From Archaeoglobus sulfaticallidus PM70-1 (GTDB lineage: Archaea; Halobacteriota; Archaeoglobi; Archaeoglobales; Archaeoglobaceae): a stretch of DNA of 64,000 nt. Made by a program: the position numbers and the translations under genes. The stretch is from the NCBI RefSeq assembly GCF_000385565.1, contig NC_021169.1, positions 1,284,571-1,348,570 of the forward strand, in the 5' to 3' direction. This document shows, piece by piece, positions 2,096-47,327 of the stretch (the first letter of the stretch is position 1; each line of letters starts with the position of its first letter). Below the pieces are notes generated by a model. It was not told the origin of the DNA, did not search any database, and saw only the letters and a list, made by a program, of their open reading frames with translations.

Positions 2096-2881
2096 ATGAA
2101 TACAAAAAAGAAAGAAATTTTAAGGATCGTCAATCTTGGATTGAAGGTTGATAGCAAGACAGTTCTGCAAAATGTCAACCTTTACATTCAGGAAGGTGAA
2201 ACTTTCGCTCTTTTCGGACCAAATGGCAGTGGCAAATCATCGTTGCTTTCGGCGATAGTCGGAAATCCGGTTTACAAGATCACATCTGGCAGAATAATCT
2301 TCAAAGGACAGGATATAACATCGATGACAGCTGACGAGAGAGTAAAACTGGGAATGGGTATAGCCTTCCAGACTCCGCCAAAGGTAAGTGGTGTGAAGCT
2401 AATCGATGTGCTGAGGCACTGTGCGAGAATAGGCGGGAGAAGCGAGGAAGACATATACAGATACGCCGAGATGCTGAAAATGGACGAGTTTCTGGAAAGA
2501 AGCATAAATTATGGTTTTTCTGGCGGTGAGGTTAAACGATCCGAGCTTTTACAGCTAATCCTGATGAACAGGGACTTCCTAATGCTCGACGAGCCTGACA
2601 GCGGTGTTGATCTTGAGAACATCGATCTCATCGGAAAGACGATCAGAGAGTTGCTCGAGAGGGACAAAAAGGAAGACGAAAGAAAGAAGTCCGGGCTTTT
2701 GATAACCCACACGGGAAAAATACTCGATTATGTGGACGCGGATTATGGAGTTATACTCTACAAGGGAAGAGTAGCCTGCGTTGGCAATCCATACGATATT
2801 TTGAGAGAGGTTAGTAAAAACGGTTATGAGGGGTGTATTAACAAATGTCTGAGAGAGTTTCCGAATCTGAATTCAAATTAG
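2096..2881 (+). CDS. sufC: SufC, ATPase of the SUF iron-sulfur assembly complex
   Basis: An ABC ATPase of 261 residues that powers Fe-S cluster assembly on the SufB/D scaffold in the cytoplasm. It shows Walker A GPNGSGKSS near residue 41, the ABC signature FSGGEVKRSE near 141 and Walker B FLMLDEPDSGVD near 160. The signature variant and the absence of membrane segments fit SufC and not a transporter. The next gene, a SufB/D-type scaffold, starts inside its 3' end (37-bp overlap), so the two are translationally coupled. The minimal SufBC pair is the ancestral archaeal form of the system. No start ambiguity is visible; a TATA-like box lies about 25 bases upstream. Confidence 0.93.
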   Translation: MNTKKKEILRIVNLGLKVDSKTVLQNVNLYIQEGETFALFGPNGSGKSSLLSAIVGNPVYKITSGRIIFKGQDITSMTADERVKLGMGIAFQTPPKVSGVKLIDVLRHCARIGGRSEEDIYRYAEMLKMDEFLERSINYGFSGGEVKRSELLQLILMNRDFLMLDEPDSGVDLENIDLIGKTIRELLERDKKEDERKKSGLLITHTGKILDYVDADYGVILYKGRVACVGNPYDILREVSKNGYEGCINKCLREFPNLNSN

Positions 2882-3966
2882 ATGAACCCGAGATCAAGAA
2901 GAAGCTTGAAACTGTTGGAATCGAGCTTAATCCAGAGAAGAGATCAGCCACATTCGTTCAGGTTGATCAGGATACCTTTAACGCCGCATCATTCACAGAA
3001 AGCGTTGAGATCATGAGCATAAGGGATGCGATGGAGAAGTACGAGTGGGTCGAGGATTACTTCTGGAAGCTGATTAAAAGAGAGCAGGATGTTTTCACGA
3101 AAGAGGCAGACTCAGAAGATGTCAATGGATACTTCATAAGATCCTTGCCGGGTAAAAAGGTTGAGATTCCGGTTGAAGCCTGCCTGTATTTGAGAAAGGC
3201 AGGATCCAGGCAGAAGGTTCACAACATAATCATAGCTGAAGAGGGTTCAGAGCTGAACATAATATCTGGCTGCACCTCTCATCCGGGAGTAACCTCAGGC
3301 ATGCACATAGGGATATCAGAGTTTTTCGTGAAAAAGAACGCAAAGCTGACTTTCACGATGATCCACAGCTGGGAGTCAGATATAGAGGTCAGGCCGAGAA
3401 GTGCTGCACTGGTTGAAGAGAATGGAGTCTTCATAAGCAACTATGTGCTGATGAATCCTGTTAAGCTCGTTCAGATGTATCCAACAGCATATGTCAAGAA
3501 GAATGGCACGGCGATATTCAGCAGCATCATCGTTGCCCTTGAGAACTCTGTTGTTGATTCTGGAAGCAGAGCCATTCTTGAGGAAGAGGGAGCAAGTGCA
3601 GAAATTGTTTCAAGAACGATCAGCAAGGGAGGGGACATAATTGCGAGAGGCCATATAGTGGGCTCAGCACCGGATGTCAGGGGTCATCTGGAGTGCAGGG
3701 GTTTGATGCTCGATGAAAAGGGTATGATCCATGCCATTCCAGAGCTTGAAGCGAGATATCCAAATGTCGATCTCAGCCACGAGGCTGCCATAGGAAAGAT
3801 CGCTGAGGAGGAGATATTCTACCTTCAGTCGAGAGGTTTGACAAGGGATGAGGCCACTGCAGCGATAATAAGGGGGTTCCTCGAGCTGGACATAAAGGGA
3901 ATCCCGGATGTTCTGAAGAGAGAGATCGACAAGGCAGTATCGATGGTCGAGGGAGACCTCTTCTAG
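2845..3966 (+). CDS. sufB: SufB/SufD-family Fe-S cluster scaffold protein
   Basis: 373 residues of the SufBD family, the right-handed beta-helix scaffold on which Fe-S clusters are built together with SufC. The beta-helix region is visible from about residue 110 onward (HNIIIAEEGSELNIISGC, then TSHPGVTSGMH). The C-terminal part has the conserved GHLECRGLMLDEKG, then IPELEA and LSHEAAIGKIAEEEIFYLQSRGL motifs. One SufBD protein serves here, so it probably acts as a homodimer with SufC. The start at 2845 lies within sufC. A T-rich terminator follows at once, closing a two-gene operon. Confidence 0.92.
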   Translation: MSERVSESEFKLDEPEIKKKLETVGIELNPEKRSATFVQVDQDTFNAASFTESVEIMSIRDAMEKYEWVEDYFWKLIKREQDVFTKEADSEDVNGYFIRSLPGKKVEIPVEACLYLRKAGSRQKVHNIIIAEEGSELNIISGCTSHPGVTSGMHIGISEFFVKKNAKLTFTMIHSWESDIEVRPRSAALVEENGVFISNYVLMNPVKLVQMYPTAYVKKNGTAIFSSIIVALENSVVDSGSRAILEEEGASAEIVSRTISKGGDIIARGHIVGSAPDVRGHLECRGLMLDEKGMIHAIPELEARYPNVDLSHEAAIGKIAEEEIFYLQSRGLTRDEATAAIIRGFLELDIKGIPDVLKREIDKAVSMVEGDLF

Positions 3967-3995
3967 TTTGATTTTTTATTTTATTTTTAAGTTTA
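3967..3995 (+). terminator. T-rich terminator after sufCB
   Basis: A run of T tracts (TTTGATTTTTTATTTTATTT) starts directly at the sufB stop codon and has no stem, which is the usual look of an intrinsic archaeal terminator. Confidence 0.6.
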
Positions 3996-4033
3996 ATATA
4001 AAAACCTAAAAGTATAGAAAACCAAACCTGAAC

Positions 4034-4867
4034 TCAGACGACTCCCCCAGTACTCATCAAAACATAAATAAGGTAGCCGGCGATAGCTCCAAAATTCAAA
4101 AATGGCAGTCCTGGATGTGCACCTTCTTTCTTTTCAAGTACATATATGAGCAATACGAGCCCAAAAACTCCACCGATCAACGAGAACAGGGCGGATAGCT
4201 TAATAAAGAATAACTGAGGGGCGTTATCGAAAACCTGAAGGGAAACAACCAGAATATTCGGGATCACCACATCCCCCACACCCATGAAAACAGCCCTGTT
4301 CTTTGAGTTCTCAAGATTCTCAAGCCTGTAAGATCTCGAGAATGGGATGACAAAGAGCATGGGCAGCTTCATGTCTGTGAGAGAATCCGCAAGCGAAACC
4401 ATGTGTCCGGTCTTGTAAACGGAGATGAAGTCATAGACTGCAAGAACAGTCAGCAAAACCAGTGCCGGTTGAGGGGATAGACTGATTCCGAATATCGTTG
4501 TAACTCCAACAGAGAGCAGCAATGCTGTGAGATCTATAACAATCCAGCTTGGCTTTTTTATGAGTACTGCAAGCAATACCATCGACGGTATAATGGATAA
4601 AACACCCAGAAATGGATACATAACATAGAATATCGAGATCAGCATTAGACCATAGAGCAAAAACTGGATCAGATCCTTTCTGTACTTCACGACCAGGAGG
4701 ATAAAGGCCGTAAACAGCAGAATCATGCCAAAGTAGTAAATGGAGTTCATAACATCCTCAGGATTCTCAAAGGCTTTCATCCCGGCATCCTCGTAGTTGG
4801 GAGTCAATAGAATCGCCAGTATAGCTGATAGAACATAGATTAGAATCAGGACATACCTTATTTTCAA
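4034..4867 (-). CDS. Presenilin/signal-peptide-peptidase-like membrane aspartyl protease
   Basis: 277 residues with about nine hydrophobic segments, matching archaeal presenilin homologues (peptidase family A22, formerly DUF1119). The catalytic motifs are present: the YD aspartate in LAVYDFISVYKTGHM, the GxGD aspartate in FMGVGDVVIPN and a PAL-like motif in HPGLPFLNFGAI near the C-terminus. The family cleaves membrane-spanning segments inside the lipid bilayer; archaeal substrates are not well known. It stands alone on the minus strand, convergent with sufB and divergent from the small ORF at 4963. The class III pilin peptidase also uses a GxGD fold, but its sequence motifs differ, so I do not assign that role here. 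Confidence 0.88.
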   Translation of the reverse strand: MKIRYVLILIYVLSAILAILLTPNYEDAGMKAFENPEDVMNSIYYFGMILLFTAFILLVVKYRKDLIQFLLYGLMLISIFYVMYPFLGVLSIIPSMVLLAVLIKKPSWIVIDLTALLLSVGVTTIFGISLSPQPALVLLTVLAVYDFISVYKTGHMVSLADSLTDMKLPMLFVIPFSRSYRLENLENSKNRAVFMGVGDVVIPNILVVSLQVFDNAPQLFFIKLSALFSLIGGVFGLVLLIYVLEKKEGAHPGLPFLNFGAIAGYLIYVLMSTGGVV

Positions 4868-4962
4868 CCTATCACCCTTCTCAACGGATATTCATTTCGT
4901 TCACTTTCAAACCACTCTGAGGCTTTATATTTTTTCCTTTTCAATCAAATCATGGTGATAGA

Positions 4963-5055
4963 ATGACCGTGTTCGAAGGATTGATAAAGAGGGCGTTGGA
5001 GGTTTCGAATGTTGATAGCAAATCAGCAATGGAACCGGCGATTATAGAGGCATAA
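4963..5055 (+). CDS. Small ORF of 30 residues with promoter and terminator
   Basis: An ATG at 4963 opens a 30-codon frame (MTVFEGLIKRALEVSNVDSK at its start). A TATA-like CTTTATATTTTTTCC lies about 35 bases upstream, a GGTGAT ribosome site sits just before the ATG, and a T-rich terminator follows the stop. No family is recognised. It may be a real small protein or the truncated head of a gene lost when the TnpB element landed downstream. Confidence 0.35.
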   Translation: MTVFEGLIKRALEVSNVDSKSAMEPAIIEA

Positions 5056-5056
5056 G

Positions 5057-5081
5057 ACATAATTTTTATTTTTATTTGGAT
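5057..5081 (+). terminator. T-rich terminator after the small ORF
   Basis: TAATTTTTATTTTTATTTGG follows the stop of the 30-residue ORF, which is typical of archaeal T-tract termination. Confidence 0.5.
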
Positions 5082-5189
5082 TGGGTTGAGCCTACTGAAA
5101 CTCAGTCAACTCTTTCAAAAATCAGCGAGAGTCATGAGGTGAAGTTCAGATCTTTCACGAATTTCAGCAAAATCCATGTCTTCATCTAA

Positions 5190-5347
5190 CTTGCCCGCTG
5201 GAGACTCCATCCGATAGAGGCTGTCCGACAATTACTGAGAATAATAATTCATCCCGTTTATTTTTAAATTGCAGACCTGAGCGACCTCCTTTTTCTCACA
5301 AATTTGAATTGCTGGACAGTCTCGATAGGATGGGGAGGAAAGCGGGC
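5190..5347. repeat. Imperfect inverted repeat at the left end of the TnpB element
   Basis: The arm at about 5190-5225 (CCCGCTGGAGACTCCATCC, then ATAGAGGCTGTCCGACA) matches the reverse complement of about 5311-5347 (CCCGCTTTCCTCCCCATCC, then TATCGAGACTGTCCAGC) over some 35 bases with a few mismatches. The two arms are separated by about 85 bases of AT-rich sequence. The pair lies directly before tnpB and probably belongs to the element's left end or a second, older end. Confidence 0.5.
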
Positions 5348-5384
5348 TCCAAAACCTTTTTAAGGTTAAATGCATATATGAATA

Positions 5385-6539
5385 TTGGTGGAGCACACCA
5401 AAACTGTTGTGTGCAAGCTCGAAACCACTGAGGAGGAATTTAACAAACTCATGGATACTGTTAAGGCTTTTAGATCTGCCTGCAACTACATAAGCGAGGT
5501 TGCATGGAATCAAAGGTGCTTCAACCCAGTCGCGTTACACCACCTTACTTATTATGAAACGAGAGAGAAGTTCAACCTACCAGCGAATCTTGCGGTGAGG
5601 GCGAGAGATAGAGTCGCCAAATCCTACAAAAACAACAGGAAGAAGAGACACAAGTTCACTGCCCTCTCTATGGATCTGGACAAAAGGCTCTTTACCTTGC
5701 TCAGAAACGGCGAGTTCAGAGCGTCCATCAGCACAGTCTACGGTAGAGTCAGGCCAGGACTTGCTATTGGGGAGTACCAGAAAGAGCTACTTAAGAACCC
5801 GGTTAGAGATGCTAAGCTCGTTTGCAGAAGAGATGACAGGCACTTCTACCTGCACATTACAGTATTGGTTGAAGCTCCGGAGCCCTCTGGAAGCAACCCT
5901 GTAGGTGTTGATATTGGCGTGAATAACCTTGTTGCTGCTTCAAATGGGTTTAAGGTGAATGGTAAACCCGTAGAAAGTAGGAGGCGACATTTTAGAAAGC
6001 TTAGAAGCTCCCTCCAGAAAAAAGGCACTTCCTCTGCCAAGAGGAAGCTCAAACAGCTTTCTGGTAGGGAGCGCAGGTGGGTAAACACCATACTGCACCA
6101 GATTAGCAGAGCATTCGTCGACACACTCAGCGAGGGAGATTACGTGGTATTAGAGAAGCTGAATGGCATAAGAGACAGGTGTAACGTCAGGAAAGAGTAT
6201 AGGGCTACCTTCCACAATTGGGCATTTAGAAGACTTCAGGAGATGATAGAGTACAAGTGTCTGGAGAGAGGAGTTCCTGTTGTTTATGTCGAGCCAAAGT
6301 ACTCCTCTCAAAGATGTCCAAGGTGTGGGACAATTGATAAGAGGAACAGGAAGTCTCAGGCTCTCTTCCAGTGTGTTAGCTGCGGCTTCCAGCACAACGC
6401 GGATTATGTCGCCTCCCTGAACCTCTCCGAGCTGGCTCGGGGAGGTTGGGCTGCCGTCAACCAGCCTAATGTAGGGGCTGATGACCGTCTTTGCGAGACC
6501 ACCTACAAGCCCCTTCCGTCATCATGGAGGGGTAGTTGA
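5385..6539 (+). CDS. tnpB: TnpB RNA-guided nuclease of an IS605-type element
   Basis: 384 residues of TnpB, the ancestor of Cas12. The RuvC catalytic set is complete: Asp in VGVDIGVNNLVAAS (near residue 176), Glu in VVLEKLNGIRD (near 255) and Asp in HNADYVASLNL (near 341). A zinc ribbon with CPRCG and CVSCG lies between the last two. The family uses a guide RNA (omegaRNA) made from the 3' end of the gene and the right end of the element to cut empty donor sites, which keeps the element in the genome. Translation would start at a TTG at 5385; no better start is near. The last about 35 residues (LARGGWAAVNQPN and on) are translated from the structured RNA region. It appears full length and possibly active. 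Confidence 0.88.
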   Translation: MVEHTKTVVCKLETTEEEFNKLMDTVKAFRSACNYISEVAWNQRCFNPVALHHLTYYETREKFNLPANLAVRARDRVAKSYKNNRKKRHKFTALSMDLDKRLFTLLRNGEFRASISTVYGRVRPGLAIGEYQKELLKNPVRDAKLVCRRDDRHFYLHITVLVEAPEPSGSNPVGVDIGVNNLVAASNGFKVNGKPVESRRRHFRKLRSSLQKKGTSSAKRKLKQLSGRERRWVNTILHQISRAFVDTLSEGDYVVLEKLNGIRDRCNVRKEYRATFHNWAFRRLQEMIEYKCLERGVPVVYVEPKYSSQRCPRCGTIDKRNRKSQALFQCVSCGFQHNADYVASLNLSELARGGWAAVNQPNVGADDRLCETTYKPLPSSWRGS

Positions 6540-36592: not shown

Positions 36593-37111
36593 ATGAAAAG
36601 TTGGATTAGAAAAATTAAAAAGGATGAGAAGGCTGTGAGCCCAGTGATCGGCGTGATACTGATGGTGGCAATAACAGTGATACTGGCAGGCGTGATTGCG
36701 AGTTTTGTCTTCGGTTTCGGGCAGAAAATGGGGACTGCAGCACCAAATGCACAACTTGTTTTGTCTGATGCTGTAGACGAACTAACATCGACTGGCAATG
36801 AAAACATATTCTACATGGACCACAATGGTGGAGATGCGTTGCCGTGCAAGGATCTAAGGATTCTGGTTTACTACAAGCAGACAGGATCACTATACAAGCA
36901 ATTTGACTACGATGAGTCGAACGATTACTTCTACTCTTCAGATGGAATAACTGGATCAGGTATGGGTAGCAACGACCTCTTTGAGCCAGGAGAAAGAATA
37001 ACATTTACTGAAGACGGCGACACTAACTGGGGTGCAGGAACGTACACAGTCAAGGTGCTCCACATACCCAGCGGAAACTTCATATTCACAGGTGATGTGA
37101 CGGTTAGATAA
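36593..37111 (+). CDS. Archaeal type IV pilin (class III signal peptide)
   Basis: 172 residues. The N-terminus MKSWIRKIKKDEKA followed by VSPVIGVILMVAITVILAGV is a textbook archaeal pilin: a short basic leader, a peptidase cut after the KDEKA segment, and a hydrophobic helix that packs in the filament core. The remaining about 120 residues form the exposed beta domain with LRILVYYKQTGSLYKQFDY and an acidic LFEPGERITFTEDGDTNW loop that may bind calcium. A GAGGAGGGGGTGAG ribosome site precedes it. A dead copy of its C-terminal part lies at 39178-39312. The assembly ATPase and platform are at 43718-47327. Confidence 0.88.
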   Translation: MKSWIRKIKKDEKAVSPVIGVILMVAITVILAGVIASFVFGFGQKMGTAAPNAQLVLSDAVDELTSTGNENIFYMDHNGGDALPCKDLRILVYYKQTGSLYKQFDYDESNDYFYSSDGITGSGMGSNDLFEPGERITFTEDGDTNWGAGTYTVKVLHIPSGNFIFTGDVTVR

Positions 37112-37143: not shown

Positions 37144-37788
37144 ATGAAGAAGGTCAAGCTTTTGTTCATCTGTTTAACTCTTTTAATTTTAGTATACCCG
37201 GTATCTGCTACAGCAATTTCACTTACAGGAGATGCTGATGCGGCACGGAACAGCAGGTTTAACGTAACTGTTAAAGTTACAGGTAACAACATTGGAGCTT
37301 TTCAGATATGTGTTCTGGTTCCAGAAGGTATAACTTTTGTAGATGCCAGTAAGGGGAGGGATATCAAAGACTGGGGTTTTTCGTATACCTGGATTGAGGG
37401 CTACGAGTACTATGGAGATGTCGGATACTCAGGGAGAGTAAAAATAATTGGTCTTGGCGATGCAATTAATGGAGAGCGAGAGGTAGGAGTCCTAACTTTT
37501 GTGCCAAAAAGAGCCAAAAATTTTACATTTTTGATAGATGAGCGAAATAGTAAATTAGTAGATCCTAATGAGAAAGAGATAAAAATAGATGAATTCCAAA
37601 ATCACACTATTAGGGTTTACAGATATGGGGACATAAACATGGATGACGAAATTGACGTTAAAGATTTAATAAGGCTCGAAAAGATAATTCTTATGAAGGA
37701 AAAACGAACTGTCACATCAGATATCAATAACGATGGAGAAGTTAACATACTTGATCTGGTTAGACTAATCCGGGTGTTGATAAAATGA
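37144..37788 (+). CDS. Secreted cohesin-dockerin protein
   Basis: 214 residues: a signal peptide (LLFICLTLLILVYPVSATA), a cohesin-type beta-sandwich (about 26-155; VTGNNIGAFQICVLVPEGIT is the typical dimer-strand region) and a C-terminal dockerin (about 158-214). The dockerin has two calcium-binding repeats, GDINMDDEIDVKDLIRLEKI and SDINNDGEVNILDLVRLIRV, with Asp/Asn at the usual EF-like positions. Cohesin and dockerin bind each other tightly; in bacteria they build cellulosomes, and A. fulgidus was the first archaeon found to have them (AF2375/AF2376). Here a membrane-anchored cohesin follows with a 4-bp overlap, so this protein can dock on that anchor while offering a further cohesin. Confidence 0.88.
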   Translation: MKKVKLLFICLTLLILVYPVSATAISLTGDADAARNSRFNVTVKVTGNNIGAFQICVLVPEGITFVDASKGRDIKDWGFSYTWIEGYEYYGDVGYSGRVKIIGLGDAINGEREVGVLTFVPKRAKNFTFLIDERNSKLVDPNEKEIKIDEFQNHTIRVYRYGDINMDDEIDVKDLIRLEKIILMKEKRTVTSDINNDGEVNILDLVRLIRVLIK

Positions 37789-38348
37789 TGATTCCCATTT
37801 TAGTTGCAATGGTATTAATTACATCCCAAGGCCAGATAAATGTAGGTGAGGAATTTAATGCATCAATTACTGTAACAGATGCCAATGATTTAGCAGCTTT
37901 TCAAATTGATTTGAGTTATAGTAATTTGGAAATTGTTAAAGTAAGCAGAGGAAATGCAATAAAAAACTGGTCCATATTCGATTTTGATACCATCTCTTCC
38001 AATAAAATTAGAGTGATTGCTGCTAAATTTGGAGAAGAATCTATTGGTGAAGGTGAAATATTAAATTTAGTCTTAAGAGCAAAGGAAAACACTGGAGTTC
38101 TGAGTTTAGATGGTATCCTTAGTGATTCCAATGGTAATAAAATTGATGCAATGTTCGGAAATTTAAGTGTGGATATATTAACAACCCAACCCGAATCGAC
38201 TTATACACAACCTATTATTACACCGGTAATGGAAGAAAAAGGATCACAACCTAACGAAGTTGTTGAACACTGGATTGTCGGATATTGGTATGTCATCGTA
38301 TTAATTTTAATTGGAGTTGGAATTGGGGTGTGGAAGTGGAGGACTTAG
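37785..38348 (+). CDS. Membrane-anchored cohesin-domain protein
   Basis: 187 residues: a short hydrophobic leader (MMIPILVAMVLITS), one cohesin domain (about 17-130; NVGEEFNASITVTDANDLAA, then FQIDLSYSNLEIVKVSRGNA), a Pro/Thr-rich linker (TTQPESTYTQPIITPVMEEK) and one membrane span at the C-terminus (YWYVIVLILIGVGIGVWKW). It is the natural surface anchor for the dockerin of the gene before it, to which it is translationally coupled (ATGATGA). No enzyme domain is present, so the pair is more likely structural or adhesive than degradative. Confidence 0.85.
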   Translation: MMIPILVAMVLITSQGQINVGEEFNASITVTDANDLAAFQIDLSYSNLEIVKVSRGNAIKNWSIFDFDTISSNKIRVIAAKFGEESIGEGEILNLVLRAKENTGVLSLDGILSDSNGNKIDAMFGNLSVDILTTQPESTYTQPIITPVMEEKGSQPNEVVEHWIVGYWYVIVLILIGVGIGVWKWRT

Positions 38349-38472: not shown

Positions 38473-39160
38473 CTAACGTTTCCAGAGCAATATGCCTGTA
38501 AAATAAATAAGAAAGGACAGGATTACGCATGAAACTGGGTTCTTAGCGATAATAGAGCAAAAGAGAATATTGATCCTCTGCTTTAGCGAGTTGAAAACAA
38601 ATTCAACCAAGTTTCCCTCACCCGAAAGGTGTTGTGTTCGAATCCGAGGCTCTTCAAAAGCTTCGACAAGCTGTAGAGCTTCATCAGTATTTGGGTATAT
38701 TCCCGCAGTAGGTAAGAACTTGATAAAAAGATTTTGTAGTAAGATAATTTCTGTGTTCATAATAATTAGTTCTTCCTCTCAAGGCTGTATACTATCGTTT
38801 TATCTATTGCTATGAGGTTTTTTCCTCAGTAGAGACGGCCAGTCTTTCGTCTGTTTCCAACTCCATAGCTAATATCTTTCACGCTGATCGGAGGCTTAAT
38901 AGTTTTTTCACAGAAATAGGATAAAACAGCTGTTGCAGTAGATGTCTATCTCAACAGAGCATAGGTTAGCCAAATCATAGAAAGCAACACCAAGCTTCCA
39001 GATCAAATATTCTATGCAGTTACTTGACAGCCATAGGTAGAATAAACCCACTATTACTTTTCTCTGACCTTGAATAATTCCTTCCCAGCTCCAATACAAA
39101 TTTATTCTGTTTGACTTTCTGCTATTCTGAGCTGATAGAGAGGTAGTAAATCTTACAGAA
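38473..39160 (-). pseudogene. Degraded transposase, family uncertain
   Basis: On the minus strand, broken frames read like a DDE transposase: an upstream piece near 38820-38900 with KDISYGVGNRRKTGRLY, then a stop, GKNLIAIDKTIVYSLERK, and a downstream open frame (38760-38473) with YPNTDEALQLVEAFEEPRIR, then LSGEGNLVEFVFNSLKQRIN. The GNLVE...LKQRI part resembles the Glu region of IS6/ISC774-like transposases. Several stops and shifts are present. No terminal repeats were identified, so the element limits are open. Confidence 0.4.
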
Positions 39161-39177
39161 AAAAAAACATGACTGAA

Positions 39178-39312
39178 AAATTCAGAAGGATGCGGTAACC
39201 TTTTCGAGCCAGGAGAAAGGATAACTTTCACCGAATCCGATACTGACTGGCAGGAAACACGAGTGCTTCACATATCCGGCGAAAACTTCGCAGGTGGTGG
39301 GACAGGATGCCA
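39178..39312 (+). pseudogene. C-terminal fragment of a second pilin gene
   Basis: The frame reads CGNLFEPGERITFTESDTDW followed by RVLHISGENFAGGG, which matches SNDLFEPGERITFTEDGDTN and VLHIPSGNFIFTGD of the pilin at 36593. DNA similarity is also clear around TTTGAGCCAGGAGAAAG. Nothing of the pilin N-terminus is seen upstream. It is the tail of a duplicated pilin gene, left among transposase debris. Confidence 0.75.
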
Positions 39313-39412: not shown

Positions 39413-39726
39413 ATGGATGTTTCGCTTAAAGTTAATCAATCTTATTCGGGGGAGAGATCCTGTTAGGCTCTATCCAGCAATGTTAAAGCTTCAGGTTGGA
39501 GATGTCATAAAAAGACTTGTGGTACTCAAGATCCACAATAGAGGGATGCCAGCAGGTGATGTAATAGAACTGGCAGATTTAATGGAAGGTTATGTTGGCG
39601 TAGACATAGAAGCAATTTACAGAGCTAGTGCTAGGAGAGGACATGAGCTTTGAAAAGATTGAGCAGGTGTTAAAGAAGCCAGGAATAAGTAGAGCAATTC
39701 TCAGCTTTTACGGGAGATTTGAAGAA
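39413..39726 (+). pseudogene. cdc48 paralogue with a large internal deletion
   Basis: From ATG 39413 the sequence reads MDVSLKVNQSYSGE, as the N-domain start of CDC48 ([15 protein letters not shown]). After a frameshift it continues RDPVRLYPAMLKLQVGDVI (compare [20 protein letters not shown]). It then jumps directly to the far end of the second AAA+ module, LKIHNRGMPAGDVIELADLM, then EGYVGVDIEAIYRASAR, and, after another shift, to the last CDC48 helix MSFEKIEQVLKKPGISRAIL, then SFYGRFEEM. About 600 residues are missing. A TATA-like TTTTTTATACG and a GGTGGATG site remain upstream. The last part runs in frame into the pilin-like gene at 39727. Confidence 0.72.
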
Positions 39727-40188
39727 ATGGCAAGCAAGTTTCGGCAAAGACCTTTGTCGGCTGGTGGAGATTCGGCACAAATAAGTGCGGATTATCTCGT
39801 GGGAATCGCTCTTTTTTTATTTGGAGTCACACTCGCCTTTACATATGTGCTCAATATTGCAGCTTTTCAGGAGTCAAACAAAAATCAGTACATCGCTGAG
39901 TCCATATCTGAGCTCGTTTTAGATTACCTGCACCAAAAGGATGCGTACAGAATAAACGCCATAAATACAACAAAGCTGCATAGCTTTCTTGCAAGTTCAC
40001 ATGAGCTTTACAGCCTCCTTAATCAGACTCAATTTCATGTTAATATTACCGTAAAAAATCTTTCTTCTCAAGTAATTGGAAGCGTGGGGGAACTTGCAGA
40101 AATTGAAGACTATGGATACGTTGAAAGGATAGCATTCAATTACGCGAATTCATCTGAAATATATATTATTGAGGTGAGAGTATGGTAG
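39727..40188 (+). CDS. Pilin-like membrane protein (DUF7287-like), first of the pilus gene set
   Basis: 153 residues if started at ATG 39727. A Gln-containing segment GGDSAQISADYLVGIALFLF is followed by a hydrophobic span (ALFLFGVTLAFTYVLNIAAF) and a soluble domain with NITVKNLSSQVIGSVGELAE. The arrangement, SAQ..DY.VGI.LFL, resembles small proteins encoded beside haloarchaeal PilB/PilC loci (DUF7287-like, from memory). The same frame is open upstream to 39628 through the CDC48-like tail, so a longer fused product starting at the ATG near 39643 is possible. The next gene overlaps by seven bases. It is probably a minor pilin or pilus-complex part. Confidence 0.65.
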   Translation: MASKFRQRPLSAGGDSAQISADYLVGIALFLFGVTLAFTYVLNIAAFQESNKNQYIAESISELVLDYLHQKDAYRINAINTTKLHSFLASSHELYSLLNQTQFHVNITVKNLSSQVIGSVGELAEIEDYGYVERIAFNYANSSEIYIIEVRVW

Positions 40189-40769
40189 ATTGCAGGGCAC
40201 AGACCTTTACACTAGAAGCGGCAATAACAACCCTCTTAATAGTCTTAGTTATGTTATATATATCTCAAGCAATCCCGCTCACACCTCTGACATCTTCTGC
40301 TGCAAACGTCATGGTTGAAAATACCCTTGAGATGTATGCGGGAGATGTTCTCAATACTCTTACTTATGAGCCCATCTGCTCAGATATCTCGGCAGAAAAC
40401 TTGAGCATACTGAAAAAAGCTTTACTAAGCTGGAATGGAGCTGTAATTGACGGTGGAGCGAGTAGTAGTGAATACGACACCTCTTTTGAGAATATATCCA
40501 ATGCCCTGCCCCTCAAATACGTATTGATAAACGCTTTTGAGAAGAAAGGCTTAGCGTACAACATAGACATATACTACAAGGATGCTATCATGAGAAAACT
40601 CAGATTTATATATAATGGTCAACCATCTAACAACGCCATAATTGCTACCCAGGTCATTCCAATATATGACACAGACTACGAAAATGGAATCAAAAAGTAC
40701 ATTCCTGATATCGACAGCTCAAATCTCTACAATGTTCTCTATGTGAGATTGACAGTGTGGAGGATGTAA
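40182..40769 (+). CDS. Pilin-like membrane protein (DUF7288-like)
   Basis: 195 residues. The N-terminus MVDCRAQTFTLEAAITTLLI continues into one hydrophobic helix ending near VMLYISQAIPLTPL. This RAQ.FTLEA pattern matches small exported proteins of haloarchaeal PilB3-type loci (DUF7288-like). The rest is a soluble domain with helices and strands (ENTLEMYAGDVLNTLTYEPI). No basic leader with a typical class III cut site is seen. It overlaps the gene before and is followed after one base by the next. Likely a minor pilin or a subunit of the assembly machine. Confidence 0.68.
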   Translation: MVDCRAQTFTLEAAITTLLIVLVMLYISQAIPLTPLTSSAANVMVENTLEMYAGDVLNTLTYEPICSDISAENLSILKKALLSWNGAVIDGGASSSEYDTSFENISNALPLKYVLINAFEKKGLAYNIDIYYKDAIMRKLRFIYNGQPSNNAIIATQVIPIYDTDYENGIKKYIPDIDSSNLYNVLYVRLTVWRM

Positions 40770-40770
40770 T

Positions 40771-41250
40771 ATGGAAAAGGGGCAGTTGATGATTTTGAGT
40801 GGGTTTCTGATTTTAGTGGGAATGGTTGCGTTTATAATTTTAGTTAATAATATGATTTATGTTCTAAATTCCCCTGCAATGGTGGATGTTTCTGAGAGAA
40901 ATTCCATTGAAAGTCTCGAGTATTTGATACATAAAGCGGTTGAAGACGCAGTAGCAAACGCATCATATACTGTGCTCACACAAGGTGTGAATAACAGTGC
41001 TAAGGCTGAAGAAATACTGGAAAACGAAACAAAGACTTTTAAGAGATTTTTTAATATAATCGAGGAATATTACGGAATGGATGGAAAAGCCATTAACATT
41101 AGCATTTTGAAATTGAATTGTACGGCTTATAACGATTCCTCAAAAATAATTTTGATATTAGACACAGACGTTGGCCTGTATTACAAGGACGAGGACCTAA
41201 AGCTTTATAGGATGTTAAATGTAAAAGTAAAATCAGAAGTTGAACCGTGA
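40771..41250 (+). CDS. Pilin-like membrane protein (DUF7261-like)
   Basis: 159 residues. MEKGQLMILSGFLILVGMVA and FIILVNNMIYVLNSPAMVDV give a short leader, a GQ motif and a single hydrophobic helix, as in the haloarchaeal DUF7261-like pilus-locus proteins (named from memory). The exterior part has several NXS/T sites (VANASYTVLTQGVNNSAKAE) that could be glycosylated. It lies one base after the previous stop and eight bases before the next gene, within one operon. Confidence 0.68.
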   Translation: MEKGQLMILSGFLILVGMVAFIILVNNMIYVLNSPAMVDVSERNSIESLEYLIHKAVEDAVANASYTVLTQGVNNSAKAEEILENETKTFKRFFNIIEEYYGMDGKAINISILKLNCTAYNDSSKIILILDTDVGLYYKDEDLKLYRMLNVKVKSEVEP

Positions 41251-41258
41251 GGGTGTAA

Positions 41259-41672
41259 GTGATGAATAAAGGTGTCTCTACAACTCTTGAGGCTATATTT
41301 TTGCTCTCGATCTCATCGATACTCATAGCTATTGTTCTAGTAAGTTTTTATGATGTGAGCAGTAGGGTAAAGAACGTATCTGCTAGTGAGGAAGCGTATA
41401 GTATTGCATCAAGAATAGCAAGGGATGTGTACTCTCTTGCTGTGTCTAATGCCACTTATGCCAAAAAAGAGCTAAGGATACCACATACCATAGGTGGTGA
41501 GCAGTACACAATAACCCTTGTTAATGAAACGCATAAGCTTATTGTAGAGAATAAGTATGTTAGAGTGGAGGTCCCTTTAAGCCCATATCTCAGCATTGGG
41601 GGTTCGCAGGCTAACAGCTACATGGCCTATCTGGTCGTGAATAATGGTGTCGTGGAGGTAAAAAATGAGTGA
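41259..41672 (+). CDS. Pilin-like membrane protein
   Basis: 137 residues. The start MMNKGVSTTLEAIFLLSISS and IAIVLVSFYDVSSRVKNVSA form a short basic leader with a hydrophobic helix of pilin type. The soluble part contains AKKELRIPHTIGGEQYTITL and is beta-rich. A GAGGGTGTAAGTG site precedes the ATG. It overlaps the following gene by eight bases. Related to haloarchaeal DUF7263/DUF7266-like pilus-locus proteins in plan; exact family uncertain. Confidence 0.65.
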   Translation: MMNKGVSTTLEAIFLLSISSILIAIVLVSFYDVSSRVKNVSASEEAYSIASRIARDVYSLAVSNATYAKKELRIPHTIGGEQYTITLVNETHKLIVENKYVRVEVPLSPYLSIGGSQANSYMAYLVVNNGVVEVKNE

Positions 41673-42357
41673 ACTGATGGATTGCACCGGGGTTTCGGTA
41701 CAAGTGGGGATGGTCTTACTTCTTTCGATATCTATAGTGGCCATCGGAGTTGTTTATATGGGAATTGGGCCAATAATTGATACGTACGTTGAATCAAGCC
41801 ATCAGCGGGAAGTTATTTATGTGTTTGAGCTGATGAGGGAATCAATAATCAAGATTGCTAGAGGTGTACCCTCAAGGGTGATTGAAGCAAAGATGTTTGA
41901 TGGGATGTACTTTATAAACTACACTGGATTTGTTTGTGTGAACAATACAACAGTACCCATATATTCGGTAATCTATAAAGGTGATGAGGAGATATCGCTC
42001 GAGAATGGAGCTATTTTCAGAAAAGCTGGTGGGAATTCTTTTATGGTTGAGAAGCCGCTGATTATACATAGCAATAACACAAGTGTAATAAGTGTAATCG
42101 CGTTGCATGGAGAGGGTTCAGTATCTGGGAAAGGCATTGTAAGGATAGTATTTACAAACCTTGGTTGCGATTACAGAACCATTACCAACAATACAATAGT
42201 CGTACACTCCGATCACTATTTGGAATGGAAAGAATACCTTGAGGAGGAGGGGTTTGAGATCGTAGATGTATACAACAAAACTGTTGTAGCTTCTACGCAG
42301 TCAAACTTAATATTGCTAAAGATAGTAAATGTAAAAGTAAAGTTGCGGGGGGGATGA
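41665..42357 (+). CDS. Pilin-like membrane protein with beta-rich ectodomain
   Basis: 230 residues. MDCTGVSVQVGMVLLLSISI, reached after a short MSELMDC start, forms the N-terminal hydrophobic helix (VGMVLLLSISIVAIGVVYMG). A beta-rich domain follows, including EAKMFDGMYFINYTGFVCVN, then GIVRIVFTNLGCDYRTITNN; two to three cysteines could form disulfides outside the cell. The frame stops in KLRGG just after a run of seven Gs at 42347-42353. The next gene's conserved N-terminus begins right after it in another frame, so slippage on the G run could fuse the two. Confidence 0.68.
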   Translation: MSELMDCTGVSVQVGMVLLLSISIVAIGVVYMGIGPIIDTYVESSHQREVIYVFELMRESIIKIARGVPSRVIEAKMFDGMYFINYTGFVCVNNTTVPIYSVIYKGDEEISLENGAIFRKAGGNSFMVEKPLIIHSNNTSVISVIALHGEGSVSGKGIVRIVFTNLGCDYRTITNNTIVVHSDHYLEWKEYLEEEGFEIVDVYNKTVVASTQSNLILLKIVNVKVKLRGG

Positions 42358-42385
42358 TATTTCATCGGAAGTACTTGGATGGATA

Positions 42386-43726
42386 TTGGGCTTTGCCCTG
42401 CTCACCAGTGCCGCACTATACATATATATGATTTCCTCGCCAACCCTGACTTCATTGTATGAGGCGAATGCGATTGAAGTTGCAAAAACCCAGATGTCAC
42501 TGCTTGACTATGCTGCAAGCAAATCCTCTCTTGGAGGATCCCCATCTCAAAAAGTAAAGCTGAGTTTAAACGGGGGTAGCTTAATTGCTGAAAATGGTGG
42601 AAATTGGCTTGAGATTAACGCTGTTTTAGCAGATGGTACAAAAATTAACATTTACAATGACACACTGGGAAGGGTGATTTATGTCAGGGATGATACAATT
42701 ATAGGCTACGAGTGCGGCGGAGTTTGGATGGAGGATCTGGTAATATCTCCTCCAGAGTTTCATTATGTGGTGAATACCTTAACTTTCCCCATAATTAAGG
42801 TAGTTAACAACTTCTCCATTAGTGGACAAGTTATTGAAATTCCGATCATATATCAAGGAACTGTGACATACTATCCAAATAAAAGTGTGAGTGAAAATCT
42901 GGTTAATCCAATAATGTGTGATCACATAGAGATCAAGTTAACGAGTGACTTTTACAAGGCTTGGGCAAAGTATTTTGAGGAAAATGCGGATGTATTGGTA
43001 TATGATGAGAACAAAACCATCGTGCTCGAACTTGTCGCCGATTGGAGGAATCAGCAAATCCAGTTTACCTACCTTGAAGAGGGAATACCAATAGGAAAGA
43101 TCAATACCAGCAATTCAACCCCTTTTAGTACTCTAATCGTGCATCTCGAAGATTTAAGACAGGATCTTAACCTCCCGCTCTATACCGACACCGGCTTGTA
43201 TGAACTCTGCATATCTTTCAAAAAGACGAGTGGGGGTAACGATGTAAACTATTTAGTTGTGGCTTTCATTGATAACGTTAATGATACTTATGAGAGCTGG
43301 GTATCTACCAACCCGATTCCATGGAGTAATAATAGTCAGAACATAGATCTGTTAAACAATAGTATTTCCATGGAGTACACGAATCAGCTTCATGGAGTTA
43401 ACGTTTACGGTATTCAGGGAAAAAAATTTGTCAATCCGACAGTTACTTGGGGGAATGATGTGGACTTGCAAGAAGAGGTCAATCCGGTAACTGGAGAGTT
43501 TGAGAAGGGCGATATAAAAGGCCTAGGAGACATCGTTCAGCATTACTTCTGGGTTATTGCAACAAAATCTGATACTTCAATTAGGCTTAAGAGACCTGCC
43601 GGGCAGGTATATGAGAAAGGATACAATGAAGAAAGTTCCTGGCTATATTTTGATGCGGATACTGGGGGAGGTATAGGCTTTTTACACGTGAACGAACACA
43701 AAATTAAAATTGGATTTTCAGATTAG
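42386..43726 (+). CDS. Large pilin-like surface protein (DUF7289-like); start codon unclear
   Basis: At least 446 residues. The family-like N-terminus SSEVLGWILGFALLTSAALY begins upstream of the first usable start (TTG 42386): in this frame the codons run back to a TAA at 42338 without ATG, GTG or TTG, so initiation may use an ATT near 42359 or depend on slippage at the G run. The hydrophobic helix is followed by a large beta domain (KVKLSLNGGSLIAENGGNWL; QVIEIPIIYQGTVTYYPNKS). It probably caps or decorates the pilus, as in haloarchaeal loci. It converges with pilC and overlaps its end by nine bases. Confidence 0.7.
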   Translation: MGFALLTSAALYIYMISSPTLTSLYEANAIEVAKTQMSLLDYAASKSSLGGSPSQKVKLSLNGGSLIAENGGNWLEINAVLADGTKINIYNDTLGRVIYVRDDTIIGYECGGVWMEDLVISPPEFHYVVNTLTFPIIKVVNNFSISGQVIEIPIIYQGTVTYYPNKSVSENLVNPIMCDHIEIKLTSDFYKAWAKYFEENADVLVYDENKTIVLELVADWRNQQIQFTYLEEGIPIGKINTSNSTPFSTLIVHLEDLRQDLNLPLYTDTGLYELCISFKKTSGGNDVNYLVVAFIDNVNDTYESWVSTNPIPWSNNSQNIDLLNNSISMEYTNQLHGVNVYGIQGKKFVNPTVTWGNDVDLQEEVNPVTGEFEKGDIKGLGDIVQHYFWVIATKSDTSIRLKRPAGQVYEKGYNEESSWLYFDADTGGGIGFLHVNEHKIKIGFSD

Positions 43727-45640
43727 TATATTAAAAAGCACATACGCCACAGTTAGCATGATGAGTGAGTGTTTTATGCCTGAAGACATGCTACCCTCTC
43801 CCATAACCCCGGCAACAATTCCTGCAAAAAGTCCCTGAAATATGGCAGCGTGCATAAAGATGTTTTTGTAAAAATCAACGTTTAGCCCTACTGTCATAAA
43901 AGACGTTCCGGATGACACCTGAGCGCTCTCTGCTAATGTCGATAGAAATGTTGAGGAGACTATATAAACTATTCCAATAAACACGAAGAAGGAGATGTAT
44001 ATTATTATAACATACATGAGCATACTTGAAAGCCTCTCCCTTCTTAAAAGCTCAGCATTGCTTGCATCCTTGGCTGAGATCATCAACACTTCGGTAACTT
44101 TGCCGGTTGATTTTAGAGACTCATTTAGCAAAGTTACGGTTCTTGAAAGCTCAAATATCCTCAACCTGTTCGCGAACCTAATGAGGGCATCACTCAAGCT
44201 CATCCCCCAGTCCAGATCTGCTTTTATCTTTTGAATTTCCTCTTTCAAAGGACTTGTATCTGTCTTTGCTATCATCGCTATGGCTTTGTATATCGGCACC
44301 CCACTCTCATTTGCTGCGGCAACTCTGTTGAGGAATATGGGAATCATTTTTAAGTGTCTTCTAATTCTCCTCTTCTTAGCTTCATAAAATGCGGTAAAAG
44401 GTGTGAATATAATCACGATAGCCAAAAAAATGTAGTCATCTATTGTAAAGAACCAGTCCATGGATACAGTAGTTGGAGGGTTTTGCGTAACACCATACAC
44501 AACAAATAGAATGCCAGGTGGTAATGAAAAAACGAGGGAGTAATATGGTTTTCTCCTTATGATTCCAAATGGATTTCTTAAAACCTTTTTTATCTTCCAT
44601 AACTTTATTTTCCTCTCCAATTTTTTTATATCATCTTCATAACCATCCTTTCTACTTTCCATAAGGTAAATATGACTCTCTTTTAGCTCTGGTGGTTCTC
44701 CCTCTTCAGCCGGACTAAGTAACTTTATAACTATTGCAAACATGAAAGAAGCAAATGGGATTATGATGTATATTACAGCGTAAAGTATCAGTTCGCTTCC
44801 TTGCCCCATCATAGCCATAACCGTTTGAATTATGATCAAGAAAAGAGGGCCAGCAACAAATGCGGTTATGTAGCTTTCTGCCATTAAGCCCAGGAAATCC
44901 AAGAAGTTTTTCTGATTTTGTCTCGCCTTCTCAAGATAAAAATCTGCCCTCTCTTCCAGATACCTTGTAATGTCTCCACCGCTGTCTATTATTGTTATCA
45001 AGCCGTGTAAGAACTCCTTGAAGTTCTCAGAAGGTGAAAACTCTACTGCATCCGATAAAGCCGTTCTTAAATCTTTACCCAATAATTCGATATCTCTTAT
45101 TATCCTCGAAATTTCCTTTGAAACTTCTCCGTATATTTCCTTATAACTTGCTAGCGAGTTAAAGATCCGAATTACGTCCATTCCTCCCAAGCTTAGTGAG
45201 TACATAAAGGTTATAGCATGTGGTAAAACCTTGTCAATCTTGTTTTTCCTGTCGCTTATGATTGTTGAAGGGTAAATAAGGAATAACAGAGAACCTAAAT
45301 AATAGAATATTATCGTCATTAAAATAACAACTACTCCCGAAAAAACAAGTGATTTATACGCGATCCAATAACTGTAGAAAGGCTCTGGAACAACGATGGG
45401 AAATTTTAGAATGTCTGAGGCAATTAAAAAGTATGCTAGGATCGAACCCACAATAGCTCCAAAAATCGCAAATATGAGTGATACCATTTTTGCCGTAGCT
45501 ATGTACATCTCAGGAGGCATTGAAATCATAGCTTTGTGGAGAGACACTTCTAATTCGTAATATTTCTGCCTGTTTCTTTGAATACTTCTACCAAACAGCT
45601 TGTATCCCAGGTATGTGAGGTAATTAGCTTTCTTGAACAT
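43718..45640 (-). CDS. pilC: PilC/TadC-type membrane platform protein of the type IV pilus
   Basis: 640 residues with two tandem T2SSF (type II secretion F) domains and about eight to nine membrane spans, the long form typical of archaeal pilus platforms. The first T2SSF domain includes HAITFMYSLSLGGMDVIRIF and SEISRIIRDIELLGKDLRTA-like segments; the second has LNRVAAANESGVPIYKAIAM, then ADLDWGMSLSDALIRFANRL. It sits in the membrane and passes pilin from the membrane into the growing fibre with PilB. It follows pilB by one base, as expected for a PilB-PilC pair. Confidence 0.92.
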   Translation of the reverse strand: MFKKANYLTYLGYKLFGRSIQRNRQKYYELEVSLHKAMISMPPEMYIATAKMVSLIFAIFGAIVGSILAYFLIASDILKFPIVVPEPFYSYWIAYKSLVFSGVVVILMTIIFYYLGSLLFLIYPSTIISDRKNKIDKVLPHAITFMYSLSLGGMDVIRIFNSLASYKEIYGEVSKEISRIIRDIELLGKDLRTALSDAVEFSPSENFKEFLHGLITIIDSGGDITRYLEERADFYLEKARQNQKNFLDFLGLMAESYITAFVAGPLFLIIIQTVMAMMGQGSELILYAVIYIIIPFASFMFAIVIKLLSPAEEGEPPELKESHIYLMESRKDGYEDDIKKLERKIKLWKIKKVLRNPFGIIRRKPYYSLVFSLPPGILFVVYGVTQNPPTTVSMDWFFTIDDYIFLAIVIIFTPFTAFYEAKKRRIRRHLKMIPIFLNRVAAANESGVPIYKAIAMIAKTDTSPLKEEIQKIKADLDWGMSLSDALIRFANRLRIFELSRTVTLLNESLKSTGKVTEVLMISAKDASNAELLRRERLSSMLMYVIIIYISFFVFIGIVYIVSSTFLSTLAESAQVSSGTSFMTVGLNVDFYKNIFMHAAIFQGLFAGIVAGVMGEGSMSSGIKHSLIMLTVAYVLFNILI

Positions 45641-45641
45641 A

Positions 45642-47327
45642 TTAGACTATCTCCATCTTTTCAAGCACTTTGTCGGGCCTGCTTTGGTAAGCGTGTATAA
45701 TGTCACTTACACTTTTGAAATCCCTTATGTTGTGTTCGACCATAAATTCCAAAACTTGCCTTCTCCGTTTGAGCTCATCTTGTAATTCTGCATTGCTCCA
45801 TCCCCTGCTCTTCCTTATTTCTTCCAAAGCCTTGGAGTGCCCAACCAGTAACTGCTTATCTTTAACACTATCCCACTGAAAAACCGTTGATGTTCTAAGC
45901 ATCTTCGTATGTGGGTCCAGATCAACTATTTCTGCTATCTCGATGTTTTTTCTTACTCGTTTACCTCCAACATACGTTTGAGCTTGAATGCTTATAATGT
46001 CTAAAGCTTCAAGCATTGGGCGAGGGACCTCAATAGGGGGGCTTTCTAAACGATGTATCGCCCCATTAACGCTATCAGCATGCAAAGTTGAATAGGTGGT
46101 ATGTCCAGTAGCCATAGCTTGGAATAAAGTTAACGCCTCTTTTCCTCTGACCTCACCAACTATTATGTACTCTGGTCTCTGCCTTAAAGCAGCCCTAAGT
46201 AAATCGTACATATCTATTACGCCTTTCTCTCCAAATGCTTCTCTAGTTACGAGGGGGATCCAGTTTTCATGGGGTAGCATAAGTTCCCTTGTATCCTCGA
46301 TTGTAACGATTTTCGCCTTTCTTGGAATGAAGAGGGAGATTGCATTCATCGAAGTCGTTTTACCGCTTGCAGTTCCACCAGCAAAAATTAAGCTCTTCTT
46401 ATTTTCGATACAAAGCCATAAGTAAGCCATCTGCTCTGATGAAAATGTTTTCCAGACTATTAAGTCAATTGGTGTTACTGGCTCATCTCTGAACTTCCTT
46501 ATTGTGAATGTAGAACCGTGATCAGAGACCTCTCTACCTAATGTCATCTGTATTCTGCTTCCGTCTGGTAATGTAGCATCAATCATGGGCTCTGCAATAC
46601 TTATGTGCTTACCACTTTGTTGAGCTAGTTTAACGACCAGAGTATCAAGCTCTCTCTCATTGAACCTCAAGTTAGTTTCTATGTTGGCATAATTTCTGTG
46701 AAATACAAAGACTGGTTTATCATATCCATTGCATGAAATATCCTCTAAGCTTCTATCCATCATAAGTGGAGTTAGCTTATTGTAGTAAATAAAATCTCTA
46801 ATTATATAATATAAAATCTTGTAATAAGATTTTACGTCCAAATTTATTCTCATATCTTCTATAAGACTGTCAATGGCATTCTTCAAAATTTCCTCTTTCA
46901 TCAGTTTCCCAGTACCTCTCTCAAGCTCTGTCACTTCCAAGATGTACCCAAGATCCAGCTTTAGCTTGTTTAAAACTTCAATTTCAACCGGATTTAGCTC
47001 AGGCTCTACCACAATATACCTGTAATCATGCAACTCGTCGTTGTATATGATGTAGGCTTTACTGAACGGTTCCTGAATCCAGTATTCTTCAACTATCCTC
47101 CAATCTTCTGGCAGAGAAAATTCTACAAGATCTCCATGTATGGATGGATCGTAAGCCTCAACGATCTCTCTCTTAATAATGCCCTTCTTCCGTCTTCTAC
47201 TTTTGAAAACTTTTTCGAGTTTTTTCGCCTCTTCTATAGATTCCATTGCCTGCCTCTCATACTCTTCAATAGATTCTTCTGCATCATCTTCCTTTCTTTT
47301 TCTCTTTAGGAGACCCAGCATACTCAC
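45642..47327 (-). CDS. pilB: PilB-type secretion/assembly ATPase of the type IV pilus
   Basis: 561 residues of the GspE/VirB11 ATPase superfamily, archaeal type. Motifs include the N-terminal charged region (EEYERQAMESIEEAKKLEKV), the nucleotide-binding-domain part LMMDRSLEDISCNGYDKPVF and IDATLPDGSRIQMTLG, Walker A FAGGTASGKTTSMNAI, an Asp box KIVTIEDTRELMLP, and Walker B QRPEYIIVGEVRGKEALTLF with the His box MATGHTTYSTLHAD. It forms a hexamer that powers extension. The start is GTG 47327 or ATG 47321. It is close to haloarchaeal PilB3 in context. No archaellum genes are in the window, so it most likely serves adhesion pili. Confidence 0.94.
   Translation of the reverse strand: MSMLGLLKRKRKEDDAEESIEEYERQAMESIEEAKKLEKVFKSRRRKKGIIKREIVEAYDPSIHGDLVEFSLPEDWRIVEEYWIQEPFSKAYIIYNDELHDYRYIVVEPELNPVEIEVLNKLKLDLGYILEVTELERGTGKLMKEEILKNAIDSLIEDMRINLDVKSYYKILYYIIRDFIYYNKLTPLMMDRSLEDISCNGYDKPVFVFHRNYANIETNLRFNERELDTLVVKLAQQSGKHISIAEPMIDATLPDGSRIQMTLGREVSDHGSTFTIRKFRDEPVTPIDLIVWKTFSSEQMAYLWLCIENKKSLIFAGGTASGKTTSMNAISLFIPRKAKIVTIEDTRELMLPHENWIPLVTREAFGEKGVIDMYDLLRAALRQRPEYIIVGEVRGKEALTLFQAMATGHTTYSTLHADSVNGAIHRLESPPIEVPRPMLEALDIISIQAQTYVGGKRVRKNIEIAEIVDLDPHTKMLRTSTVFQWDSVKDKQLLVGHSKALEEIRKSRGWSNAELQDELKRRRQVLEFMVEHNIRDFKSVSDIIHAYQSRPDKVLEKMEIV

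Follow-up and report, generated by a model that had tools for sequence, protein, structure and literature searches.

A candidate non-cellulosomal cohesin–dockerin surface docking pair, free of cargo domains, in Archaeoglobus sulfaticallidus PM70-1

Archaeal cohesin–dockerin proteins have reportedly been known since an account by Bayer in 1999; they bind strongly and have no known job. The stretch analyzed here from the genome of the thermophilic sulfate reducer A. sulfaticallidus PM70-1 (hereafter the window: 64,000 nt, positions 1284571–1348570 of a single 2,076,931-bp contig) raises a question through a minimal pair of genes, P1 and P2, whose products carry docking modules and no cargo domain: what would such a pair dock, and to what? 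We posit, at a probability of roughly 0.58, that P1 and P2 form a non-cellulosomal surface docking pair in which P1 is a one-cohesin adaptor and P2 its anchor. In the collection of papers searched, with all terms required, no publication combines sulfaticallidus and dockerin. A minimal cargo-free pair and dockerin-bearing peptidase-like proteins in one genome make a clean test case for polymers, peptidase display or cell joining, and thermostable cohesin–dockerin pairs are wanted for designer cellulosomes (PMC6394049).

Domains of P1 and P2

Both genes lie on the forward strand. P1 (37144..37788, 214 aa) consists of a signal peptide, a cohesin and a dockerin with no other domain, as judged from the ORF, Pfam, a held-out profile and hydropathy, and P2 (37785..38348, 187 aa) of a short hydrophobic N-terminus, a cohesin, a linker and a C-terminal membrane span, as judged from the ORF, a predicted model and hydropathy. 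The coupling by a 4-bp overlap named in the earlier note is borne out by the ORF coordinates, with the P2 ATG (37785–37787) and the P1 stop TGA (37786–37788) sharing ATGA (37785..37788, +). Fusion of the two products by −1 slippage at this junction found no support over reinitiation, and promoter and terminator scans, the former with a bacterial model, gave matches no more than in shuffled sequences.

That P1 pairs a cohesin with a dockerin, as previously noted, is backed more firmly for the dockerin, which exceeds the Pfam cut-off, than for the cohesin. After a signal peptide of about residues 1–23 (37144..37212, by eye and hydropathy) comes the cohesin (residues 24–158; 37213..37617) and then a type-I dockerin (residues 161–212; 37624..37779), matched by Dockerin_1 PF00404 at E 4.9e-8 (33.5 bits vs a cut-off of 22.9) and by PDB dockerins at a best E of 7.5e-4. 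In an alignment, both of its calcium loops, DINMDDEIDVKD and DINNDGEVNILD, are complete, keeping D1, N3, D5, E7, D/N9 and D12, and its halves are alike (9/21 positions identical); in known dockerins, such symmetric halves accompany two binding faces.

For the cohesins, we built our own profile from 22 archaeal sequences, with P1 and P2 excluded, because the Pfam model (Cohesin PF00963) matches neither protein; it also missed SC, a 2362-aa cohesin protein encoded elsewhere in the genome, and the Pfam and NCBIfam scans together name no cohesin in P1 or P2. Among 208 sequences, the held-out profile recovered both proteins, P2 (E 8e-17) more strongly than P1 (E 6e-5), with the best unrelated ORF of the window at 0.43. 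Over 1000 shuffles, the P2 domain scored 57.0 bits against a best shuffle of 12.8, and the P1 domain 18.0 against 6.5; hhalign, likewise with both left out of the profile, gave P2 a probability of 97 (E 6e-11) and P1 a probability of 67 (E 5e-5). Profile and shuffles thus suggest, at weaker strength than for P2, that P1 carries a cohesin, and since the P1 AlphaFold model (pLDDT 36) is unusable, this assignment is made from sequence alone.

The P2 cohesin (residues 9–131; 37809..38177, +) is also recognizable in its predicted structure (pLDDT 68 on average, and mostly 67–86 across the cohesin when taken in blocks of ten residues), for which Foldseek against solved cohesins returned 2jh2 at E 4e-9 and 2xdh at E 8e-9 (7.8e-9), and VIA-align placed first 2xdh, the solved A. 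fulgidus cohesin (Z 16.6, 126 residues aligned, rmsd 2.8), with other cohesins tied within 1 and cohesins above all else. P2 shares both homology and, in its predicted model, the fold of cohesins, and the membrane span also attributed to it earlier is seen in its hydropathy: about residues 164–183 (38274..38333, +; helix 165–186 in the model), where 19-residue windows starting at 158–167 stay above 1.6 and KWRT follows, with no PGF-CTERM match in Pfam. Under the positive-inside rule, positive residues behind the span would leave the cohesin outside. Before the cohesin stands only MMIPILVAMVLITSQG, which has no charged start; the hydrophobic residues continue into the first strand of the cohesin, and 24 nt upstream there is an in-frame stop. 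Because of this very short N-terminus, the nearby stop and the overlap of hydrophobic stretch and first strand, export of P2 is likely and not certain, and the protein may be exported poorly or lose its first cohesin strand.

Proposed docking and its possible partners

In the docking that we favor, P2 would be held in the cytoplasmic membrane by its C-terminal span, its cohesin facing out, and secreted P1 would plug its calcium-loop dockerin into that cohesin; once docked, P1 would offer a single further docking site, its outward-facing cohesin, which another P1 or another dockerin protein of the cell could then fill. P1 would in this way resemble a one-cohesin adaptor scaffoldin, and P2 an anchoring scaffoldin. 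Docking of P1 on membrane-anchored P2 is the most likely mechanism; we infer the P1–P2 binding, the cargo of the P1 cohesin and any role of the pair, and for the binding there is a precedent in a pair from A. fulgidus, of the same order.

Since P1 carries both halves of the interaction and nothing else, it might also, as the earlier note envisaged, close on itself, the dockerin of each copy entering the cohesin of the next to give a bare, cargo-free filament capped at the membrane by P2. We consider this self-assembling set unlikely: the P1 dockerin does differ from the three others of the genome, which resemble one another, but in those cellulosomal systems that have been tested, binding between the dockerin and the cohesin of one protein is unusual, and self-association, as reported for an A. 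fulgidus cohesin, would confuse a test of such chaining.

The three other dockerins emerged from the genome-wide search for further dockerin proteins that had been suggested earlier. An alignment of 13 dockerins, among whose rows are all four strong matches, found six places, two of them short and weak. The other four, at E <= 1e-20, are P1, an S8 subtilisin-like protein of 723 aa, an M23-like protein of 295 aa and a NosD/PKD protein of 852 aa. PF00404 alone picks out the same four, although as single proteins the latter three score 22.8, 19.7 and 13.7 bits, under the Pfam cut-off of 22.9; in a six-frame search, one of these passes and two pass only with neighboring in-frame matches. A companion search, with 16 aligned archaeal cohesins as the query, found five places, one at E 0.097 and four at E <= 1e-28 (P1, P2, a 278-aa protein and SC, all four being rows of that alignment). 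The description of the pair as self-contained thus stands inside the window and fails for the genome, where three dockerin proteins and at least two cohesin proteins are encoded besides P1 and P2; similarly, the earlier argument that the pair has no catalytic domain and so is not degrading stands inside the window only, as two of the three other dockerin proteins are peptidase-like, by names taken from Pfam matches alone. Display of peptidases through cohesin and dockerin is therefore possible in this organism.

Could P1 or P2 be the site of that display? A proteolytic surface complex, in which the cohesin of either protein holds the S8, M23-like and NosD/PKD proteins, would account for the dockerins in which all three end. 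We regard it as rather improbable, because the subtilisin–dockerin gene adjoins a cohesin protein of its own, SC, which is the likelier partner, because the dockerins are of another type than that of P1, and because long distances separate the loci in the genome. The difference in type is seen at loop positions 10–11, which read VK/IL in P1 and IA/IG, FE/VG and IG/IG in the other three, and in the second half, where ILDLVR in P1 faces an (I/V)GDLAK type common to the others. If positions 10–11 set specificity, as they do in clostridial dockerins, the P1 dockerin and the other three would have different partners. In the cohesin tree, P1 and P2 fall near cohesins of genome G032 and of the f7 genomes, and SC and the 278-aa protein elsewhere, on long branches with weak support. 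Because the dockerin types differ and the cohesins split, a P1/P2 set closed off from the remaining modules is plausible.

SC belongs to a second, larger cohesin–dockerin cluster at 1677400–1692400 of the same contig, where the S8–dockerin gene precedes, all in the same orientation, genes for SC and for surface proteins of 271, 1168 and 341 aa. SC has a cohesin at residues 37–165, a second weak one near 1069, and FG-GAP and CARDB domains; the N-terminal parts of the 271-aa and 1168-aa proteins are cohesin-like (E 0.08 and 0.05, unproven), and by eye the 1168-aa protein has a PGF-type C-terminus. At the C-terminal end of SC are two near-identical dockerin-like stretches starting GDVDGDSGVTDWDSWVVLRYNYEKTLE, which the dockerin profile did not recognize (E 0.1 for the frame). 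A further conserved C-terminal dockerin type, GDFNxN...ADFNxN..VDIGDLAKIAYY, occurs on otherwise unrelated surface proteins (L018, L092, L140) from Archaeoglobaceae and from one genome of the same class.

Genomic surroundings and relatives

P1 starts 32 bp downstream of an archaeal type IV pilin gene (36593..37111, +; PF07790 E 3e-24, TIGR02537), and downstream of P2 lie a gap of about 850 bp in which no gene is convincing and a decayed copy of the 3' part of that pilin gene (39198..39289, +), which forms a direct repeat with it (71% over 107 columns, E 6e-10). A 159-bp stretch of the same gap (38947–39105) recurs at 73% at contig positions 1543528–1543686. Beyond it (39628..47327) lie pilin-like DUF7287/7288/7289 genes on the forward strand and FlaJ-like and FlaI-like assembly genes at 43718–45640 and 45642–47327 on the reverse strand; a DUF7288 match occurs in 10 of 55 genomes, A. 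sulfaticallidus included. The four relatives read (L169–L172) keep the pilin-like genes without cohesin or dockerin neighbors, and a link of P1/P2 to a type IV pilus is not relied on here, as the adjacency is not conserved in them.

Relatives of the pair itself are scarce. Queried against the 54 other genomes of the family, P2 found no relative at E <= 1e-3 (1/55, its own), and P1 found matches in 5/55, again counting its own, the others being partial except in G032 (25% identity over residues 36–213) and none being both close and full-length, so that no conserved pair can be called on as support. Across a phylum sample of 392 genomes, P2 found 22 and P1 found 41, mostly single domains on other proteins. 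The nearest small cohesin–dockerin proteins (in G281, G246 and G238) are 27–28% identical to P1 and have no anchored cohesin alongside; in a profile scan of 233 ORFs from these three loci (L131–L133) and the four relatives' loci, only the three P1-like proteins fell below E 0.09.

The low GC content (P2 34.0%, the lowest, and P1 37.1%, the fourth lowest of the 53 window genes, mean 44.1), the flanking pilin gene and decayed pilin copy, and the retention of the pilin-like operon without P1/P2 in relatives fit, and do not prove, an acquisition or mobile history. The same GC values, the pair's lack of relatives within the family, and the decayed fragment and gene-poor stretch downstream could even mark a decaying or recently acquired relic of little function, caught between a pilin gene and its decayed copy. 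This we hold to be very doubtful, given that the two overlapping frames are intact and encode complete domains, and that the dockerin has kept its calcium-binding positions.

Comparison with known docking systems

The closest comparison for the favored docking of P1 on P2 comes from genome G001, which we take to be A. fulgidus, where a PD40–cohesin–dockerin gene is followed by a cohesin–PGF-CTERM gene; the 506-aa first protein is presumably AF2375, its dockerin at 435–484 fitting the published 432–506. That dockerin reportedly bound both A. fulgidus cohesins in work of 2011 by Voronov-Goldman, and an A. fulgidus cohesin is said to self-associate. The idea that a dockerin of this kind docks on the neighboring anchor gains support by analogy, because the ORF2375 dockerin of this same-order pair binds the ORF2376 cohesin strongly and specifically (PMC9705933, citing Voronov-Goldman 2011). 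Like P1/P2, AF2375/AF2376 joins a first gene ending in cohesin and dockerin to a second gene for an anchored cohesin, the genes overlap (by 20 bp in L075, 4 bp in P1/P2) and there is no cellulose link. Unlike P1, however, AF2375 carries PD40 beta-propeller repeats at its N-terminus, and the C-terminus of AF2376 is a PGF-CTERM (PF18204), where P2 has a plain membrane span without PF18204.

The cohesins of the two pairs also belong to different branches. In AU tests on 34 of the 37 tree rows (three long or doubtful ones dropped), which still include long branches and whose groups were chosen with a first tree already in view, which makes the p values optimistic, holding P2 with AF2376-type anchors (p 0.011) or P1 with AF2375-type cohesin–dockerin cohesins (p 0.015) was rejected, all together gave p 0.042, and P1 and P2 as sisters were not rejected (p 0.25). 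P1 and P2 are not clear orthologues of the A. fulgidus pair, as judged from their sequences, and partner specificity is therefore not transferable from the tested A. fulgidus cohesins; either the same gene order appears here with different cohesins as its parts, or the sequences have diverged beyond the point where this can be judged. A bolder version, a two-component cargo-free polymer in which P1 self-chains and P2 seeds and anchors, with an operon built twice in archaea from different cohesin branches, seems to us improbable.

Twelve family genomes have a PF00963 match, and in 9 of them a dockerin gene is followed by a cohesin–anchor gene, with the arrangement complete in 7 (G009 is cut by a contig end and G030 has no scored cohesin in the first gene). 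In seven genomes (G002, G009, G026, G028, G030, G051 and G053), the AF2375/AF2376-like pair is followed by a third gene, whose product of about 190–224 aa has its dockerin at the N-terminus and is conserved in its C-terminal part. Farther afield, the search for related loci gave one, in a Bacilli bin (L074), which is an analogue of P1/P2; there, at 2408–5916, a gene with a dockerin-like end directly precedes one with a cohesin and a membrane span (dockerin and span by eye).

Among cellulosomal systems, ScaC and ScaE of Ruminococcus flavefaciens, its adaptor and anchoring scaffoldins, resemble P1/P2 in combining a small protein of one cohesin and one dockerin with a surface-bound cohesin protein. 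The likeness stops short of a cellulosome: neither P1 nor P2 has more than one cohesin, the four strong dockerins of the genome are those of P1 and the S8, M23-like and NosD/PKD proteins, and the dockerin search found no dockerin-bearing polysaccharide-degrading enzyme in this genome. The modules of P1 and P2 are most like those of the f7 genomes; in some of these, dockerins occur on binding proteins that are TroA-like by eye. ANME archaea likewise have non-cellulosomal cohesin and dockerin proteins (PMC9012536), but their dockerins sit on ABC binding proteins and their scaffoldin-like proteins have up to 5 cohesins, whereas P1 is a bare one-cohesin linker. Set beside these systems, P1/P2 is an archaeal docking pair of an already known kind, unusual for having no cargo domain.
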